Assembly: GCF_000737325.1 (NCBI RefSeq)
Contig: NZ_CP011125.1
Location: 7,440,001-7,504,000, forward strand
Source: Sandaracinus amylolyticus
GTDB lineage: Bacteria; Myxococcota_A; Polyangia; Polyangiales; Sandaracinaceae
Direction of reading: 5' to 3'
Length of the DNA stretch: 64,000 bases
Shown: positions 54,419 to 64,000 of the stretch, in pieces
Numbering within the stretch: the stretch's first letter is position 1
Layout: each line of letters starts with the position of its first letter
The notes under the pieces: model-generated
Told to the model about the DNA's origin: nothing
Database searches by the model: none
The model's input: the letters and a program-made list of their open reading frames with translations, nothing else
Translations under genes and position numbers: made by a program

Positions 54419-57052
54419 TCAGGGCAGGACGCCGATCAACACGGCGCCTTCGCCGATCGACACCGCGCCGAGCGACATCGGCGCGCCCAGGTGCGCCGCG
54501 ATCCACGCCGTGCCGGTGTCGTCGATCGCGACGTCCGCCGCGTGATCCTCACCGACGCCGCCGAGCCCGCGCGCCGCGAGGAGGCGCCCGTCATCGCTCG
54601 CGAAGCGCGCGACGAGCACGTCGGAGGCGCCCACGCTGGTGAGCGACGTGCCTGCGAGGTCAATCGTGCCCGTGAAGTCGGCGGTGATCGCGATCTCGCT
54701 CGCGGACGCTGCGAGGCCGAGGCGGAGCGGCAGCGCGATCGGCGGCGCGGCGCTCTCGAGGATCGCGTCCACGTCGCGCGCGAGGTCCCAGGGACGCGCG
54801 TCGATCGCGCGCGCCCAGCTCGGCGCACCGGTGTCGGCGCGGAGGGCCGCGAGGAAGAGCGCGCCCGGGCGCGGCGCGGTGATCGTCTGGTCGCCGATGG
54901 TGATCGAGCCCGAGAAGCGTCCCGCGACGATCACTGCGCCGAGGTGCTCGACGACGCGCAGCGCCTCGTCCTCCGACGCGCCCCCGATCGCGACGCGCCA
55001 CACGTAACTGCCGTCGCCCCGCATGCGCGCGACGAACGCATCGCTCGCGCCGTGCGAGACGAGGCCGTCCCAGCTGCCGCGGAACGAGCCCGCGATCACG
55101 ACGTCGTCCGCGACGCCCACGATGGTGTGCACCGCGTCGTCGGATGGGCCACCGACGGTGACGAGACGCGGCTCCGGCCCGGTGAATGCGACGTAGCCGT
55201 CGGTGCCCCCGCGCGCCGTGACGTGCGCGACGCACTCGGCGCTCCCCGAGCAAGGCGGAGAGATCGCGCCCGAGAACGTCCCCGCGATGACCCCGCCGCG
55301 CGCGGCGCTCGCGACGGCTTCACCGACCACCGTGACGCCGATCAGACGCCAGTCGTCCGCGGGGGTCCTCGCGGTCACGACGCGGTACGCCGCGGTGGCG
55401 CGGGTGGACACCAGCCACGGCGGCGAGAGCCCGGGCTGTGTCGCGTCGAGGAGGAGCTGGGTGGCGCCGCCCCCCGCGATGATCGCGGCGCCGCCGCTGC
55501 GCCCCTGCGGGTCGAAGCACCACGAGACGCCACCGTACGCGTCGAGCTCCACGACGTATCCGAGCGTCGTCGCGCAGACGCCCTGACGTGCCGCGGCGAG
55601 CGCGAGCGGCACGTTGCGATCGCTCTCCACGGTGTAGGGATTGTCGAGCCGCACCACGCCGGCGATGCCCGGAGCGCGCGGGCACCACTCGTACGCCATC
55701 TCACGGCAGACGGCGGAGCCCCCACGGGGACGCAGATCGATCACCGCATCGATGCAGTCGCCGCCGTCCCGCGTGACGCACGAGGTGGAGGCGACGCACA
55801 CGCCGTCGACGCAGCCCTGATCGATCGGGCACGCGAGGTCGCAGCCACCGCAGTGATCCGCGTCGAACGACACGTCCGCGCAGCGCCCGCCGGACACGTC
55901 GCAGTCGACGCACCCGCATCGCGAGTCCTCGCAGCGCGAGCCGGCCGGGCAGACGACACCGCACCCGCCGCAGTTCGCGGGATCGGACCGCGTGGGCGTG
56001 CACACCCCGTCGCAGTAGGCGCCCGAGCAGATGCACGCGCCGCGGCTGCACGATTCGTCGGCCGCGCATGCGTGGCCACACTCGCCGCAATTCCTCGCGT
56101 CGGACAGGAGCCGGGTGCAGATGCCGTCGCACAGCGTCGCGTCGGCGCGCGGCACGCACGCGCCCTCGACGCACTCCTCGCACCACTGACACGACACGCC
56201 GCATGCGCCGCAGTGCTCGCGGTTGCTCCGCGGATCGACGCAGAGCCCGCGGCACGTGAGGAAGTCGTCCGGGCAGATGCACTCGCCGTCGATGCACTGG
56301 GTCCCGTCGTCGCACGACACGCGGCACACGCCGCAGCTGCGCGGCGTCGTGCCGATCGTGTTGCACGCGTTCTGCTCGGCGCAGAGCTCGAGCCCGATCG
56401 GGCACGCGCACGCGCCCTGGTCGCACACGCCGCCCGAGGCGCACGACACGCCGCACGTGCCGCAGTGCTCCACGTCCGTGCGGTTGTCGACGCAGGCCCC
56501 CTCGCAGATCGCGGTGCCCTCGGGGCACACGCACGCGCCGTTCACGCACTGTCCGAGCCCGCACGAGCTCTCGTCGACGTCTCCGTCGCAGTCCTCGTCG
56601 CGCCCGTCGCACTGCTCGTCGGCGTAGATCGACACGTGCGCGTCGGCGTCGTCGCAGTCGCCACCGCCGCACTCGGGCTGGAGGTCACCGTCGCCGTCGC
56701 GATCCCCGAGGTAGCGCACGGTGCAGGAGCCGAGCTCACAGCGCTCGTCCGCGGTGCACGCGTCGTCGTCGGCGCAGTCGAGATCGCTCGTGCACGCGAC
56801 GCTGCTCGCGCACCCGCCGTGGTCGGGCACGCACGCGCTCCCGGGACAGAACCCGGGCGGGCGACCGTGGTAGCAGCGCAGGCCCGCGCAGTCGTCCGAG
56901 GTGCACTCGATCCCGTCGTCGCAATCGCCGAGGTCGAAGCACTCTGGTGGGTCGATGCGCACGCCGGTATCGCGGATCCGGAAGCCCTCGGCCTCGCAGC
57001 CGACCACCCACGCGGCCAGCGCGACGAGCACGAGCGAGAGCGGCCTCCGCAT
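54419..57052 (-). CDS. composite lipoprotein: MopE-type motif, Cys repeats and SBBP-like propeller
   Basis: The 877-residue protein starts with a lipoprotein signal (LVALAAWVVGCEAEGF). Residues about 30-160 are Cys/Asp-rich and include GDRDGDGDLQPECGGGDCDD and EQCDGRDEDCDGDVDESSCG, the putative metal-binding motif of the MopE family. Residues about 160-440 contain seven eight-cysteine units (CEGACVDNRTDVEHCGTCGV and others) of the kind expanded in the protein at 59386. The C-terminal half has repeats such as VTVGGPSDDAVHTIVGVADD and VAIGGASEDEALRVVEHLGA with VVIAGSFRGS, as in SBBP beta-propellers. It is probably a large cell-surface protein. The start is divergent, 26 bp from the TonB receptor gene. 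Confidence 0.8.
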   Translation of the reverse strand: MRRPLSLVLVALAAWVVGCEAEGFRIRDTGVRIDPPECFDLGDCDDGIECTSDDCAGLRCYHGRPPGFCPGSACVPDHGGCASSVACTSDLDCADDDACTADERCELGSCTVRYLGDRDGDGDLQPECGGGDCDDADAHVSIYADEQCDGRDEDCDGDVDESSCGLGQCVNGACVCPEGTAICEGACVDNRTDVEHCGTCGVSCASGGVCDQGACACPIGLELCAEQNACNTIGTTPRSCGVCRVSCDDGTQCIDGECICPDDFLTCRGLCVDPRSNREHCGACGVSCQWCEECVEGACVPRADATLCDGICTRLLSDARNCGECGHACAADESCSRGACICSGAYCDGVCTPTRSDPANCGGCGVVCPAGSRCEDSRCGCVDCDVSGGRCADVSFDADHCGGCDLACPIDQGCVDGVCVASTSCVTRDGGDCIDAVIDLRPRGGSAVCREMAYEWCPRAPGIAGVVRLDNPYTVESDRNVPLALAAARQGVCATTLGYVVELDAYGGVSWCFDPQGRSGGAAIIAGGGATQLLLDATQPGLSPPWLVSTRATAAYRVVTARTPADDWRLIGVTVVGEAVASAARGGVIAGTFSGAISPPCSGSAECVAHVTARGGTDGYVAFTGPEPRLVTVGGPSDDAVHTIVGVADDVVIAGSFRGSWDGLVSHGASDAFVARMRGDGSYVWRVAIGGASEDEALRVVEHLGAVIVAGRFSGSITIGDQTITAPRPGALFLAALRADTGAPSWARAIDARPWDLARDVDAILESAAPPIALPLRLGLAASASEIAITADFTGTIDLAGTSLTSVGASDVLVARFASDDGRLLAARGLGGVGEDHAADVAIDDTGTAWIAAHLGAPMSLGAVSIGEGAVLIGVLP

Positions 57053-57059
57053 CGACGCG

Positions 57060-57065
57060 ATGATA
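57060..57065 (-). promoter_or_regulatory. -10-like hexamer TATCAT, leaderless type
   Basis: On the minus strand TATCAT ends 7 nt before the ATG at 57052. It overlaps by 2 bp the plus-strand hexamer at 57064-57069. Confidence 0.45.
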
Positions 57066-57069
57066 GCCT
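57064..57069 (+). promoter_or_regulatory. -10-like hexamer TAGCCT, leaderless type
   Basis: TAGCCT followed by CG ends 9 nt before the ATG at 57079. The two start codons are only 26 bp apart, so the two polymerases cannot bind at the same time. Confidence 0.45.
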
Positions 57070-57078
57070 CGGCGCCGG

Positions 57079-59331
57079 ATGTCCGGCAGGAGCGCGCTCG
57101 CGATCGTGGTGCTCGCGTCGATCGCCGCGACCGCTCCCGCGCACGCCCAGTCGGTGCAGCCACCCGCGGTGATCGCGCTCGCGCCCGTCGAGCTCGACGC
57201 GCCGCGCGTCGCCGAGGTCGGCGCCTCGATCGACGTGCGGGTGATCGTCGATCGCGACGGACGCGCGAGCCTCGATCAGGACGTGATGGAGCCCGAGCTC
57301 CGCGCCGCGGTGGAGGACGCGCTCGCGCGATCACGCCTCGCGCCCGCGATGCGCGGCGGCACCGCGGTGATCGCGCGCGCGAGGGTGCGGCTCGACGTGC
57401 GCGCCCGCGAGGTCGCGCCGGTGGAGCCGCCCGAGATCACGCCACCTTCGATCGAGCCTTCGTTCCGCGCGCTCGCCCGCGCGACGCCCGAGCCCACGAG
57501 CGCGACGATCCTCGAGGCCGAGGAGGTGCGCGATCTCCCCGGTCTACAAGGCGACCCATTCCGCGTGGTCGAGACGCTCCCAGGCGTCGTCCCACTGCTG
57601 AGCGGGTTGCCGTTCCTCTACGTGCGCGGCGCGCCGCCCGCGGGGACGATCACGCTCTGGGACGACATCCCGGTGCCCTCGCTCTTCCACGTCGCGGCGG
57701 GGCCCTCGACGATCCACGCGGCGCGCCTCGGCGAGATGCGCCTCTGGCCCGGCGTCGCGCCGGCGCGCTACGGGCGCCACGTCGGCGGCGTGGTGCTCGG
57801 CGCCGCGGCCCCGATCGAGCCGCACCTCGGCGGCGAGGTCGAGCTGCGCCTGCTCGACGTGAACGGGATGATCACGGTCCCGATCGATCGCCGCCACGTG
57901 GTGCAGGCGTCGGGTCGCTACGGCTACCCGGGGTTGATCGTCGGCGCCGCGTTCCCCGGCGTCGAGCTCGACTACTGGGACTACCAGCTGACGGCCGATC
58001 TCGACGACGGTCACGGCGGCCACACGCGCCTCGTCGCGATCGGCGCGTACGACCGACTGCGCCAGGACCTGGCGGACATCGAGACGCTCGGAGAGCAGTC
58101 CGACGTCCTCCTGCACTTCCATCGCGTCGAGGCGCGACACGTGCGCGCGCTCGGCGGAGGCGCGGAGTTCGGCGCGGCGCTGCGGCTCGGATACGACCAG
58201 TCGCAGCTCGGCGAGGCGGTCGGCGCCGAGGTGTGGAGCGCGAGCCCGCGCCTCTGGAGCGCCTTCTCGCTCGGCTTCGCGCGGCTGCGCATCGGCGCGG
58301 ATCTCGTCGCGAGCGGAGGTCGCATCGACTCGGGCCGCAGCGAGGATCCCGCGATCGCCGGCGCGCTGATCGCCGAGGGCGCCTACGCCGGGGCGCGCAC
58401 CCGCACCGCGGCCGGCGCGTACGCCGAGGCGCTCCTGCCGATCCCCGGCGTGCTGCGGCTCGAGCTCGGCGCGCGCGTCGACACGTGGGTCACGGCGCGC
58501 GAGGTCCAGGCCGCGCCGTCGCCGCGCGCAAGGCTCGTGGTGCACGCCTGGGAGGGCGTCGACGTGCACGCCGCGGTGGGCCTCGCGCACCAGCCCGCGG
58601 TGCTCTTCCTGCCGCTTCCCGGCTTCGCCGAGCTCGCAGTCGATCGCGGCCTCCAGCGCGCGCTCCAGAGCGACTGGGGCGTCTCGCTCACGCTGCCGCT
58701 CGGGATCTCGCTCGAGGCGCAGGGCTTCTTCCACTACTTCGATCAGGTGCTGCTGCCCGACCTCTACGTGCAGGATCGCGAGATCTGCGTGGAGTCGTGG
58801 TGCACGCAGGTCCAGATCGATCCGAGGGCGCGCGCCCGGGTGCTCGGCCTCGAGGTGCTCGCGCGGCGCGAGGGTCGCGACGTGAGCGCATGGATCAGCT
58901 ACACGCTCAGCGAAGCGACGGCGCGCGCCCACGAAGGGTTCGAGTTCGTTCCCGGCTTCGACGTGCGCCACGTCATCCAGGCGATGGGCCGCGCGCGCAT
59001 CTGGGAGGGCCTCGAGATCGCGCTCCGCGTGCTCGTGCGCTCGGGTCGCGTGGTGGGTCGCTACTTCATCGAGCCCACGGGCCTGACGGCGCTGCGCTAC
59101 GAGCAGCGACTGCCGTGGTTCTTCCGAGGCGACGCCGAGATCGCGTACGCGTGGGACGCGGGCTGGGGGCGGCTCCGCGTGTCGCTCGGCTGGACGAACG
59201 TGACGCTCTCGGAGGAGCCGATCGCGCTCGAGTGCAACTACGACTCGAACGGTCGCCCCGAGGCGCCCTGCGCCGTGCAGAGCGCGCCCGCGATCTTCCT
59301 GCCGAGCCTCGGGATCCGAGCGCAGCTCTGA
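57079..59331 (+). CDS. TonB-dependent receptor with N-terminal TonB-C-like domain
   Basis: The 750-residue protein has a Sec signal (VVLASIAATAPAHAQSVQ). Residues about 45-115 (VDVRVIVDRDGRASL-like strand, ALARSRLAPAMRGG) resemble the C-terminal domain of TonB. A plug domain follows: ILEAEEVRDLPGLQGDPFRV, ETLPGVVPLLSGLPFLYVRG, EMRLWPGVAPARYGRHVGGV. The remainder is a beta-barrel with alternating strands (VEARHVRALGGGAEFGAALR, SAWISYTLSEATARAHE) and ends FLPSLGIRAQL. It is an outer-membrane receptor; the barrel suggests import but the substrate is unknown. The N-terminal TonB-like part is an unusual but known myxobacterial layout. It is divergent from the composite lipoprotein gene. Confidence 0.82.
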   Translation: MSGRSALAIVVLASIAATAPAHAQSVQPPAVIALAPVELDAPRVAEVGASIDVRVIVDRDGRASLDQDVMEPELRAAVEDALARSRLAPAMRGGTAVIARARVRLDVRAREVAPVEPPEITPPSIEPSFRALARATPEPTSATILEAEEVRDLPGLQGDPFRVVETLPGVVPLLSGLPFLYVRGAPPAGTITLWDDIPVPSLFHVAAGPSTIHAARLGEMRLWPGVAPARYGRHVGGVVLGAAAPIEPHLGGEVELRLLDVNGMITVPIDRRHVVQASGRYGYPGLIVGAAFPGVELDYWDYQLTADLDDGHGGHTRLVAIGAYDRLRQDLADIETLGEQSDVLLHFHRVEARHVRALGGGAEFGAALRLGYDQSQLGEAVGAEVWSASPRLWSAFSLGFARLRIGADLVASGGRIDSGRSEDPAIAGALIAEGAYAGARTRTAAGAYAEALLPIPGVLRLELGARVDTWVTAREVQAAPSPRARLVVHAWEGVDVHAAVGLAHQPAVLFLPLPGFAELAVDRGLQRALQSDWGVSLTLPLGISLEAQGFFHYFDQVLLPDLYVQDREICVESWCTQVQIDPRARARVLGLEVLARREGRDVSAWISYTLSEATARAHEGFEFVPGFDVRHVIQAMGRARIWEGLEIALRVLVRSGRVVGRYFIEPTGLTALRYEQRLPWFFRGDAEIAYAWDAGWGRLRVSLGWTNVTLSEEPIALECNYDSNGRPEAPCAVQSAPAIFLPSLGIRAQL

Positions 59332-59385: not shown

Positions 59386-62300
59386 ATGCTCCGCAGTCGG
59401 CTTTCTGGGGCGCTTCTCTTCGTCCTCCTGTCCGCCGTCCTCACGGCGTGCTCCGGGCAACCCCTCGTGGGCGGTCCAGGCGACGAGATGGACGCGTCGA
59501 TCCTCTCGTGCGCGCCCTCGGAAGCGCGCTGCGGCGACGACTGCGTCGACACCACCGCGGACCCGCGGCACTGCGGCGGATGCGGCAACGCGTGTCAGGT
59601 CGGGTCCATCTGCGTCGCCGGCGCGTGCGAGCTCTCGTGCCCGACCGGACAGCTCGAGTGCAGCGGCCGCTGCGTCGATCCACGCACCGACCTCGCGCAC
59701 TGCGGAGCCTGCGACGCGGCGTGTGATCCCGGCCTCGTCTGCGCCGACGGCGCGTGCAGCCTGACCTGCGGCACCGGCCTCGCGCGCTGCGCCGCGCCCG
59801 ACGGCACCGAGCGCTGCGCCGATCTCCAGACCGATCGCGCGCACTGCGGCGCGTGCGGCACCGCGTGCGGCGCCGGCGAGATCTGCGAGGCCGGCGCGTG
59901 CGTGATCGCGTGCCCCGCGGGCCAGGTCGAGTGCGACGGTGCGTGCGTCGATCTCGCGCTGAACCGCTTCCACTGCGGCGCGTGCGGCACCGCGTGCGAC
60001 CCGGGCACGGTCTGCACCGGAGGCGCGTGCGCGACGACGTGCGGCGCCGGGCTCGAGAACTGCGACGGCGTGTGTCGCGACCTCGCGACCGACCGCGCGA
60101 ACTGCGGCGGCTGCGGCGTGACGTGCGGCGCGGGCGAGGTCTGCTCCGCGGGCACCTGCGAGACGACCTGCGGCGCCGGGACCACCGAGTGCAGCGGCGT
60201 GTGCCGCGACCTCGCGACCGACCGCGCGAATTGCGGCGGCTGCGGCATGGCGTGCGCCGCCGGCGAGGTGTGCTCCGCGGGCAGCTGCGAGACGACGTGC
60301 GGCGCCGGCACCACCGACTGCGACGGAGTCTGCCGCGACGTCCAGACCGATCCCACGAGCTGCGGAACCTGCGGCAACGTCTGCCCGGCGGGCACGGTGT
60401 GCAGCGCGGGCGCGTGCGAGGTGAGCTGCGGCGGTGGCCTCACGGACTGCGGCGGCGTCTGCCGCGACCTCGCGACCGATCGCGCGAGCTGCGGCGCGTG
60501 CGGCGTGACCTGCGCCGCCGGCGAGATCTGCAGCGGCGGCACCTGCGCGACGAGCTGCGGCGCGGGCACCACCGAGTGCCTCGGCGTCTGCCGCGACCTC
60601 GACACCGATCGCGCGAATTGCGGCGGGTGCGGCGTCACCTGCGCGGCCGGCGAGGTCTGCTCCGCGGGCACCTGCGAGACGAGCTGCGGCGCGGGCCTCA
60701 CCGACTGCGGCGACGTCTGCCGCGACCTCGCGACCGATCGCCTCCACTGCGGCGGCTGCGGCGTCGCCTGCGCGCCGGGCGAGATCTGCAGCGGCGGCAC
60801 CTGCGCGACGTCGTGCGGCGCCGGTCTCAGCGACTGCAGCGGCGTCTGCCGCGATCTCCAGAGCGATCGCACGAGCTGCGGCGCGTGCGGCAATGCGTGC
60901 GACGCCGGCGAGGTCTGCTCGGCGGGCATGTGCACGCTCAGCTGCGGCGGCGGCACGACCGACTGCGGCGGGATCTGCCGCGACCTGCAGAGCAACGCGC
61001 TGCACTGCGGCGCGTGCGCGAGCCCGTGCGTCGCCGGGACGTCGTGCGTCGCGGGCACGTGCGAGACGAGCTGCGGCGCCGGCCTCGACAACTGCGGCGG
61101 CGTCTGCCGCGATCTGCAGACCGATCGCCTGAACTGCGGCGCGTGCGGGAACGACTGCGCCTCGGGCGAGATCTGCGACGGCGGCACCTGCGTCGTGAGC
61201 TGCGGCACCGGGCTCGCCGAGTGCGGCGGCGTCTGCCGCGACCTCGCGACCGATCGCGCGAACTGCGGCGGCTGCGGCATCGCGTGCGCGGCGGGCGAGG
61301 TCTGCAGCGGCGGCACGTGCGAGACCAGCTGCGGCGGCGGGCTCACCGACTGCGGCGGCGTGTGTCGCGATCTCACCACCGACCGCGCGAGCTGCGGCGC
61401 GTGCGGCAACGCGTGCGACGCGGGCGAGGTCTGCTCGGGCAGCGCGTGCGTCGTGACGTGCGGCGCGGGCCAGACGAACTGCGGCGGCACCTGCCGCGAT
61501 CTGACGACCGATCGCTTCCACTGCGGCGCGTGCGGCGACGCGTGCGCGGCCGGCGAGGTCTGCTCGTCGGGCGCGTGCGAGGTCAGCTGCGGCGGCGGCC
61601 TCACCGAGTGCAGCGGCGTGTGCCGCGACCTCGCGACCGATCGCGCGAGCTGCGGCGCCTGCGGCAACGCGTGCGCGGCCGGCGAGGTCTGCTCGTCGGG
61701 CGTGTGCACCGTCAGCTGCGGCGCGGGCCTGACCGAGTGCAGCGGCGTGTGCCGCGACCTCACGACCGATCGCGCGCACTGCGGGACCTGCGGCGACACC
61801 TGCGACGCGGGCGAGGTGTGCTCGGGCGGCGCGTGCGTCGTCAGCTGCGGCGTCGGCCTCGACGAGTGCGGCGGCACGTGCCGCGACCTCGCGACCGATC
61901 GCTTGAACTGCGGAGCGTGCGGCACCGCGTGCGATCCCGGCGAGGTCTGCTCGGGCGGCGCGTGCACCGTCAGCTGCGGTGGCGGCCTCGACAACTGCAG
62001 CGGTGTCTGTCGCGACCTCGCGAGCGATCGGCTCCACTGCGGCGGCTGCGGCGTCGCGTGTGATCCCGGCGAGGTCTGCTCGTCGGGCGTGTGCACCGTC
62101 AGCTGCGGCGCCGGCCTCGACGAATGCGCGGGCACGTGCCGCGACCTCGACACCGATCGCCTGAACTGCGGCGCGTGCGGGAGCGCGTGCGACCCCGGCG
62201 AGGTCTGCTCGGGCGGCACCTGCGTCGTGACGTGCGGTGCGGGCACGACCGACTGCGGCGGCAGCTGCCGCGACCTGACGACCGATCGCCTCCACTGCGG

Positions 62301-63582
62301 CGCGTGCGACGACCCCTGCGCGCCCGGCGAGGTCTGCACCGCGAGCGCCTGCACCGTGAGCTGCGGCGGCGGCCTCGCGAACTGCAGCGGCGTCTGCCGC
62401 GACCTCCAGACCGATCGCGTGCACTGCGGCGGGTGCGGCGTGACCTGCGATCCCGGCGAGGTCTGCATGGCCGGCACGTGCACGCTGAGCTGCCCCGCGG
62501 GACAGGTCGGGTGCGGCGGCACGTGCCGCGATCTCACGAGCGATCGCCTGCACTGCGGCGGATGCGGCATCGCGTGTCCGGCGGGCCAGATCTGCGCGGG
62601 CAGCGCGTGTGTCGTCGACTGCGGGGTCGGCCAGACGAGCTGCTCCGGCGTGTGCCGCGATCTGCAGACCGATCGCATGAACTGCGGGATGTGCGGCCGC
62701 GCGTGCCCCGCGGGCCAGGTCTGCGACGGCGCGGCGTGTCGCGTGAGCTGCGGCGTCGGGCTCACGGAGTGCTCGGGCAGCTGCCGCGACGTCGTGACCG
62801 ATCGCCTGAACTGCGGGATGTGCGGCCGCGTCTGCGGCGCGGGCCAGGTCTGCGACGGCGGCTCGTGCACGCTGAGCTGCCCCGCGGGACAGCTCAACTG
62901 CTCGGGCGTCTGCCGCGATCTCTCGAGCGACGCCGCGAACTGCGGCGCCTGCGGGCGCACCTGCGCCGCGGGCACCGTGTGCTCCGCCGGCACCTGCAGC
63001 CCCTCGTGCGGCGCCGGCCTGTCGCCGTGCGGCGGCGTGTGCCGCGACCTCTCGAGCGATCGGCTCAGCTGCGGCGCGTGCGGCCGGGCGTGTGGGCCGG
63101 GACAGATCTGCAGCGCCGGGACGTGCAGCCTCTCGTGCCCGCCGGGCGAGGTCGCGTGCGGCGGCACGTGCGAGGACGGGACGTCGAACACCTGCGAGGC
63201 GCCGATCGACCTCGGCACCATCGCGATCGGCTCGTCGGTCTCGACGCCGACGCTCTCGCTCCCCGCCGACGCCCAGAGCGAGTGGTTCCTCGTGCGGTTC
63301 CCGCACAACCCCGACGTCCGCCAGCGCGGCAGCGGCGCACCGACGATCACGTTCGGCGTGAACGACGGCGGCGTCTTCCGCTTCGAGGTCCGCACGGCGT
63401 GCGGCGGCGGGCCCACGTGCGGGCTCCCGCTCACCCAGTGGGCCTTCCGCGACACGTGCTCGTCGGCGAACCTCGACTGCTCCACGCGCAACGTCGCGTG
63501 GCCGACCGCGGTGTGGATCCGCGTGAGCCGCGTCTCGCCCGGCACCGACTGCCGCACCTATCGCCTCACGGTGTCGCGATGA
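59386..63582 (+). CDS. giant cysteine-repeat surface protein (28 eight-Cys repeats)
   Basis: The 1398-residue protein has a lipoprotein-type signal (LFVLLSAVLTACSGQP). Residues about 42-1265 consist of 28 complete repeats of 43 residues plus a partial one. Each has eight cysteines in the order C-x3-C-x6-C-x3-C-x9-C-x2-C-x3-C-x5-C, for example CSGVCRDLATDRANCGGCGM followed by ACAAGEVCSAG. The first four repeats differ (CVDTTADPRHC, CVDPRTDLAHC); the later ones are very alike. The last about 135 residues form a beta domain (APIDLGTIAIGSS, WFLVRFPHNPDVRQ, VWIRVSRVSPGTDCRTYRLT). It is likely a long disulfide-braced fibre or stalk on the surface, possibly binding metal or matrix. Its stop overlaps the next ATG (ATGA). 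Confidence 0.8.
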   Translation: MLRSRLSGALLFVLLSAVLTACSGQPLVGGPGDEMDASILSCAPSEARCGDDCVDTTADPRHCGGCGNACQVGSICVAGACELSCPTGQLECSGRCVDPRTDLAHCGACDAACDPGLVCADGACSLTCGTGLARCAAPDGTERCADLQTDRAHCGACGTACGAGEICEAGACVIACPAGQVECDGACVDLALNRFHCGACGTACDPGTVCTGGACATTCGAGLENCDGVCRDLATDRANCGGCGVTCGAGEVCSAGTCETTCGAGTTECSGVCRDLATDRANCGGCGMACAAGEVCSAGSCETTCGAGTTDCDGVCRDVQTDPTSCGTCGNVCPAGTVCSAGACEVSCGGGLTDCGGVCRDLATDRASCGACGVTCAAGEICSGGTCATSCGAGTTECLGVCRDLDTDRANCGGCGVTCAAGEVCSAGTCETSCGAGLTDCGDVCRDLATDRLHCGGCGVACAPGEICSGGTCATSCGAGLSDCSGVCRDLQSDRTSCGACGNACDAGEVCSAGMCTLSCGGGTTDCGGICRDLQSNALHCGACASPCVAGTSCVAGTCETSCGAGLDNCGGVCRDLQTDRLNCGACGNDCASGEICDGGTCVVSCGTGLAECGGVCRDLATDRANCGGCGIACAAGEVCSGGTCETSCGGGLTDCGGVCRDLTTDRASCGACGNACDAGEVCSGSACVVTCGAGQTNCGGTCRDLTTDRFHCGACGDACAAGEVCSSGACEVSCGGGLTECSGVCRDLATDRASCGACGNACAAGEVCSSGVCTVSCGAGLTECSGVCRDLTTDRAHCGTCGDTCDAGEVCSGGACVVSCGVGLDECGGTCRDLATDRLNCGACGTACDPGEVCSGGACTVSCGGGLDNCSGVCRDLASDRLHCGGCGVACDPGEVCSSGVCTVSCGAGLDECAGTCRDLDTDRLNCGACGSACDPGEVCSGGTCVVTCGAGTTDCGGSCRDLTTDRLHCGACDDPCAPGEVCTASACTVSCGGGLANCSGVCRDLQTDRVHCGGCGVTCDPGEVCMAGTCTLSCPAGQVGCGGTCRDLTSDRLHCGGCGIACPAGQICAGSACVVDCGVGQTSCSGVCRDLQTDRMNCGMCGRACPAGQVCDGAACRVSCGVGLTECSGSCRDVVTDRLNCGMCGRVCGAGQVCDGGSCTLSCPAGQLNCSGVCRDLSSDAANCGACGRTCAAGTVCSAGTCSPSCGAGLSPCGGVCRDLSSDRLSCGACGRACGPGQICSAGTCSLSCPPGEVACGGTCEDGTSNTCEAPIDLGTIAIGSSVSTPTLSLPADAQSEWFLVRFPHNPDVRQRGSGAPTITFGVNDGGVFRFEVRTACGGGPTCGLPLTQWAFRDTCSSANLDCSTRNVAWPTAVWIRVSRVSPGTDCRTYRLTVSR
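59509..63200 (+). repeat. 129-bp tandem repeats encoding eight-Cys units
   Basis: Twenty-eight full units and one partial unit of about 129 bp (43 codons) stand head to tail. Central copies are highly alike at the DNA level (CTGCGGCGC, GTCTGCCGCGACCT and GAGGTCTGC recur in nearly every unit), which favours copy-number change by recombination. It is coding DNA, not a CRISPR array: there are no unique spacers. Confidence 0.85.
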
Positions 63583-64000
63583 GCACGCGCTCCCTCCTGC
63601 TCGCGAGCGCGCTGCTCGCCTCGATCGCGTCGCGCGCGCACGCCGACGACGTCACGCCCACGCTGCAGCTCGAGGGCGGGGCGCAGGTGATGCTCACCGA
63701 CTCGTACCGCGATCGCTTCGACTGGGGCGGGCTCGGCTTCGCGCGCGCGGGCATCGAGCTGATCGGCCCGCTCGCGCTGCAGCTCGGCGTCGGCACCGCG
63801 TGGTTCCCGGTGCCGGAGCAGGATCCCGGCAACCTCTACGCGTTCGAGCTCGGCGCGCGCGGCTTCTTCGTGATCGATCGCGTCGCCGGCGGTCCGTTCG
63901 TCGACGCGAACGTCGGCGTCGGCATCACCGGCGATCTGGTGCGGCTGGTGTTCGACGTCGGCCTCGGGTGGGAGCTGCTCCCGCTCGAGTGGCTCGGAGT
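63579..64000 (+). CDS. outer-membrane beta-barrel protein, 5' part
   Basis: The gene starts with an ATG overlapping the stop of the cysteine-repeat gene and runs off the end of the window (140 codons seen). It has a Sec signal (SLLLASALLASIASRAHA) and then amphipathic beta-strands (PTLQLEGGAQVMLTDSYRDR, FARAGIELIGPLALQLGVGT, LYAFELGARGFFVID, LVRLVFDVGLGWELLP). This fits an 8- to 10-stranded outer-membrane barrel, perhaps with an OmpA-like C-terminus beyond the window. Translational coupling suggests that it works with the cysteine-repeat protein, for instance as its anchor; that is inference. Confidence 0.65.
   Translation, partial: MSTRSLLLASALLASIASRAHADDVTPTLQLEGGAQVMLTDSYRDRFDWGGLGFARAGIELIGPLALQLGVGTAWFPVPEQDPGNLYAFELGARGFFVIDRVAGGPFVDANVGVGITGDLVRLVFDVGLGWELLPLEWLG

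Follow-up and report, generated by a model that had tools for sequence, protein, structure and literature searches.

What is a giant bacterial protein of eight-cysteine repeats for, and why is its gene joined to that of an outer-membrane barrel? These questions are raised by the 3' end of the 64,000-nucleotide stretch of DNA analysed here (the window), for which the initial annotation proposed a long disulfide-braced fibre that is either anchored by the barrel or exported through it. The reading preferred here, which is given about even chances, is of a lipid-anchored disulfide stalk with a faster-changing C-terminal head, the base of which is held by a wall-bound OmpA-family partner in a layout resembling TraA/TraB (TraAB). 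It builds on the observed repeats, their conserved cysteines, the gene overlap, the conservation of the pair and the domain make-up of the partner. The features of the locus are as follows; G000 denotes the window's own genome (with L009 as its locus), G002 a genome of the same genus, G007 one of the same family and G053 one of another family.

57079-59331, + strand: TonB-dependent-receptor-like gene, 54 bases upstream of the repeat gene
59386-63582, + strand: gene of the giant cysteine-repeat protein, probably a lipoprotein; 1398 aa, 28 repeats, 234 cysteines, ATG start
59386-59451, + strand: predicted signal peptide with lipobox LTA-C22 (from sequence, by motif scan), followed by SGQPLVGG; similar in the orthologues
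59509-63126, + strand: 28 tandem eight-cysteine repeats (residues 42-1247)
63136-63192, + strand: degenerate half repeat (residues 1251-1269)
63193-63579, + strand: C-terminal domain of 129 aa, a PPC/collagen-binding-domain-like β-sandwich in a low-confidence model, with the highest dN/dS of the gene
63579-63582, + strand: ATGA stop/start overlap (ATG 63579-63581, TGA 63580-63582)
63579-64000, + strand: OmpA-family partner, first 140 aa (whole protein 390 aa); the gene continues to L009:10752

The repeat protein and its OmpA-family partner

Each of the 28 full repeats contains eight cysteines with the spacing C6C3C9C2C3C5C4C, which is exact in 27; the period is 43 residues, and once 48 due to a five-residue insert in repeat 3. 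Residue shuffling of the protein did not yield even one such repeat in 500 attempts. The full repeats hold 224 of the 234 cysteines, the others being the lipobox cysteine and those of the half repeat and the C-terminal domain, which confirms the repeat number, length and cysteine count first noted for this DNA, the single longer period aside. The protein belongs to the MXAN_6577-like cysteine-rich family of NCBIfam (NF041328, 974.4 bits over 12 stretches against a curated cut-off of 100) and also to Pfam Stig1 (PF04885, 415.4 bits over 28 stretches against a gathering cut-off of 24.1); the latter, taken from a plant stigma peptide, is a name only for this bacterial protein. The repeat is the same as that of other MXAN_6577-like proteins and is thus an already known family, but one known as a database entry; the open-licence literature searched yielded no paper on this family or on Stig1 in myxobacteria. 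Repeats of the NF041328 type are abundant in the order, with matches in 55 of the 56 genomes searched. The window protein differs from its relatives in being coupled to an OmpA gene and in having the longest array among the repeat genes examined in its own genome, the others having 1-14 repeats.

The N-terminus of the protein, MLRSRLSGALLFVLLSAVLTAC, contains a lipobox ending at C22 according to a motif scan. The G002 orthologue carries the variant FAAC, which is absent from the output of the scan, and the N-termini of the three orthologues are visibly similar to that of the G000 protein; based on the LTAC at its start, the repeat protein is probably a lipoprotein. Another protein with these repeats (L015:5276-7150, − strand) ends in a cysteine, a hydrophobic stretch and an arginine tail that by eye are MYXO-CTERM-like, so anchoring in this family may be of two kinds.

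The C-terminal domain has no match in Pfam; searched by sequence, the whole protein has no match among solved structures at E≤0.01, and a profile of the C-terminal domain retrieved a single match at chance level. The six final repeats were modelled together with the C-terminal domain (mean pLDDT 50.0); the model gives every repeat two small hairpins, and its C-terminal domain aligns with 1nqd over 101 residues (VIA-align Z 9.5, rmsd 2.5), an alignment made on a low-confidence model; Foldseek returned no match to the C-terminal model at E≤0.001. A PPC-type, collagen-binding-like β-sandwich is considered a lead and not proof. The domain was matched in 14 of 56 genomes (the own genome and relatives from the order), and a scan of genome contigs gave one locus, L194, which is the same locus as that of G053. 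It also caps a cysteine-rich protein with quite different repeats (L107:7692-11960) and matches twice within one 3259-residue frame (L114), which suggests a mobile module. Neither this domain nor the lipobox, nor the repeat's place in a named family rich in paralogues, had been part of the initial annotation.

The gene that follows encodes a protein of 390 aa belonging to the OmpA family, with the OmpA domain (PF00691) at residues 284-373 (60.9 bits against 27.2) and weak TSP3 repeats ahead of it. In the model of the G053 partner (mean pLDDT 47.7) the barrel part has eight main strands of at least four residues and one of three; the best solved matches of this model in Foldseek are the eight-strand barrels NspA, OmpX, Ail and OmpA. 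The partner is a compact OmpA-family protein, composed of a barrel of predicted eight-strand size, a TSP3-like linker and a peptidoglycan-binding domain. The ATGA overlap first noted between the two genes is real.

Selection along the array and placement of the proposed stalk

The orthologues contain 28 (G000), 28 (G002), 30 (G007) and 23 (G053) repeats, and for 25 of the 28 repeats of G000 the most similar G002 repeat is the one in the corresponding position. Equal numbers in register in two species of the genus argue against a phase-variable repeat number and against the labile copy number expected initially, the counts of 23 and 30 being confined to more distant relatives. The companion claim that the DNA repeats are alike enough to recombine is weak, as their mean mutual identity is 69% (maximum 89%) and no exact 50-base stretch is shared; identical 50-base stretches, and a later repeat duplication, are present in the G007 orthologue.

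All 224 repeat cysteines are kept from G000 to G002, compared with 827 of the 982 other repeat residues. For this one species pair, from which all dN/dS values derive, the ratio in the repeats is 0.23 (bootstrap 0.19-0.28) and in the C-terminal domain 0.89 (0.54-1.58), which indicates a rigidly held stalk with a faster-changing far end; one stretch elsewhere in the repeat gene has an equally high dN (0.205). The OmpA partner gives 0.25 overall and 0.13 in its peptidoglycan-binding part, the upstream TonB-receptor-like gene 0.13, and the downstream gene with EGF-like domains is also high at 0.66.

In the preferred reading, the signal peptide would be cut at C22 and a lipid attached there would hold the N-terminus in the outer membrane; the 28 modules, presumably disulfide-bonded, would form a long stalk that displays the putative β-sandwich at its far, C-terminal end, probably at the cell surface. 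The translationally coupled OmpA-family protein would be a dedicated partner in contact with the base of the stalk, which it would tie to the cell wall as TraB does for TraA. The likely function of such an assembly is contact between cells or between cell and surface, i.e., adhesion.

The main rival is a periplasmic arrangement, in which the lipoprotein would be held at the periplasmic side of the outer membrane and its disulfide array would act as a tether or spacer beside the cell-wall domain of OmpA, stiffening the envelope. A lipobox does not by itself show surface export, disulfides form in the periplasm too, and the C-terminal domain of OmpA proteins is periplasmic. In E. coli, RcsF is not known to be operonic with ompA. 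PMC7553776 describes RcsF as a lipoprotein that binds this periplasmic part of OmpA and not the barrel, and to that extent RcsF-OmpA resembles the window pair in joining an outer-membrane lipoprotein (predicted for the window) to an OmpA partner; unlike the window's repeat protein, RcsF is small and a stress sensor. Twenty-eight modules would, however, be long for a periplasm, and a faster-changing far end with a β-sandwich related to binding domains fits an exposed tip better; the periplasmic arrangement is considered unlikely, if still a serious competitor.

The gene pair among relatives

An OmpA gene lies directly 3' of the repeat gene, with an ATGA overlap, in all four orthologous loci (G000, G002, G007 and G053), which span two families; a lack of linkage to the barrel gene in relatives, the outcome that was to speak against a connection, is therefore not what was found. 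Twenty loci with matches to the C-terminal domain were examined for neighbours beyond the own genome, those of G002, G007 and G053 being the closest; in the other 17 no OmpA homologue adjoins the match, and in L107 one lies about 5 kb away on the other strand. The upstream TonB-receptor-like gene accompanies the pair in G002 but is kept in neither G007 nor G053, and was rejected as part of a conserved unit. In three loci of a further family, f5, a 22-repeat protein that is without the C-terminal domain overlaps an OmpA gene by GTGA (L159), ATGA (L161) and GTGA (L162). Among the pairs inspected for it, the four-base overlap occurs in 7/7 loci of two OmpA clades; L179 and L183 do not have it.

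With the barrel as query, 96 of 183 genomes of the order gave matches, and 35 of the 37 loci with OmpA homologues ranked 5-41 were examined (two were left out). In 11 of these a same-strand gene with at least two repeats lies no more than 2 kb away, and in one (L168) such a gene is on the other strand; five additional repeat genes, spread over four of the 35, are more distant. The remaining 24 loci are without a same-strand repeat gene within 2 kb, a count that includes the seven of the 35 for which a short contig or the end of a contig might hide a neighbour; L169, with a cysteine-rich neighbour of one repeat only, was not counted as paired. The four partners of the window type form one clade (100/99) in a tree built from 41 OmpA proteins, where more than one clade contains paired genes and either gene order is represented; on the starred branches the "upstream" label and the "downstream" label must each change at least three times, a pattern compatible with gains or losses that happened repeatedly. 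Of the 41 rows, five were selected by hand or taken from beyond the ranking; L154, L170, L172 and L173 appear in the tree, and L169 does not.

The number of OmpA genes within 2 kb of a same-strand repeat gene is 2 of 21 in G000 and 2 of 23 in G002, where random placement expects 0.13 and 0.17 (P 0.007 and 0.012); these genomes, complete or nearly so, share the same two pairs and are not independent. The second of these neighbour pairs, with the OmpA gene first, is at L154:4461-7102 in the own genome and is also found in G002. Within the own genome 25 of 27 repeat-gene loci have no OmpA neighbour; together with the 24 ranked OmpA loci without a repeat gene, this indicates that the repeat can do without an OmpA partner.

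OmpA relatives that have no repeat gene beside them are what would be seen if the pairing were an inherited neighbourhood with no joint function. This explanation is regarded as rather improbable, due to the consistency of the four-base overlap within its two clades, the occurrence of pairs across several OmpA clades with either gene first, and the absence from G007 and G053 of the upstream receptor gene, which did not follow the pair.

Comparison with TraA/TraB and the remaining readings

TraAB, the outer-membrane-exchange pair of Myxococcus xanthus, is the nearest described system; the window pair shares its layout, with other parts and reversed polarity. According to PMC12045341, TraA consists of a recognition head, a cysteine-rich stalk and a lipid-type anchor, whereas TraB, with which it forms 1:1 complexes, combines a barrel with TSP3 repeats and an OmpA domain; the traA and traB genes have a four-base overlap (PMC3325183). 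The window pair shares the cysteine-rich repeat stalk with a β-rich head (the latter from a low-confidence model), the four-base overlap with an OmpA-domain gene, and the partner's order of barrel, TSP3 and OmpA domain. Unlike TraA, the window protein has repeats of NF041328 and not TIGR04201, a predicted anchor at the N-terminus with the head at the C-terminus, and a far longer stalk.

Membership in TraAB was rejected. The repeat protein has no PA14-like domain of the TraA kind (Pfam at E≤1 gives Stig1 alone) and neither TIGR04201 repeats nor MYXO-CTERM (TIGR03901; NCBIfam at E≤1 gives NF041328 alone). Against the TraB model NF033763, with a cut-off of 700 bits, the window partner scores 63.2 and only over profile positions 315-497, the C-terminal part; the cut-off was reached in none of six genomes. 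Distant TraB-like proteins that match the TraB model in its two halves, but score below the cut-off, do occur, for instance at G000:C1:868137-869816 within a 2548-residue open frame. Among the open-licence papers listed for cysteine-rich repeats, OmpA and operons in myxobacteria, most deal with TraA/TraB, and no title or opening of an abstract concerns the present pairing.

Recurrent coupling to OmpA-domain barrel genes provides the MXAN_6577-like family with a role that can be tested, namely that of stalks anchored to the wall. It also suggests that the layout of TraA/TraB is one case of a wider design. A bolder proposal, which is speculative and would be somewhat surprising if correct, is that myxobacteria without canonical TraB have an independent second class of contact receptors resembling TraAB; very long disulfide stalks, anchored by lipid and each paired with an OmpA protein of its own that binds peptidoglycan, would recur across several families of the order, and their fast-changing heads would mediate recognition between cells or of prey.

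The earlier alternative, in which the protein would leave the cell by barrel-assisted export as a subunit of a fibre or sheath, draws on the size of the protein, its repeats and the adjacent barrel gene. The part of that proposal which stands is a long protein of disulfide type genetically tied to a barrel; export through the barrel was rejected on barrel size. To our knowledge, eight-strand barrels of OmpA type have no export pore and are not known as exporters. With eight main strands and eight-strand barrels as the best matches for the partner model, and a lipobox that argues for attachment to the cell, a released fibre is very unlikely. Metal or thiol storage, for which the 234 cysteines might speak and which had been listed among possible functions as metal binding, was rejected on composition and is scarcely credible, since the protein has no CC or CxC pairs, no lysine, 13 histidines in its mature part, a pI of 4.27, a fixed pattern of eight cysteines per repeat and a signal peptide.

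The neighbourhood of the pair as a whole is rich in cysteine modules of extracellular type; it was surveyed with a simple GC-based gene caller, which took the wrong frame over the repeat gene in L009 and served for the overview of neighbours only. The divergent gene at window positions 54419-57100 (− strand) encodes a second cysteine-rich lipoprotein with five to six of the same repeats and a weak match to an SBBP-type β-propeller, and a similar gene adjoins the pair in G002. Just 3' of the OmpA gene, L009:10927-12747 encodes a lipoprotein-like product with three EGF-like domains that is kept in G002, and the product of L009:16151-17941 (− strand) has 55 cysteines and, by eye, a papain-like look.
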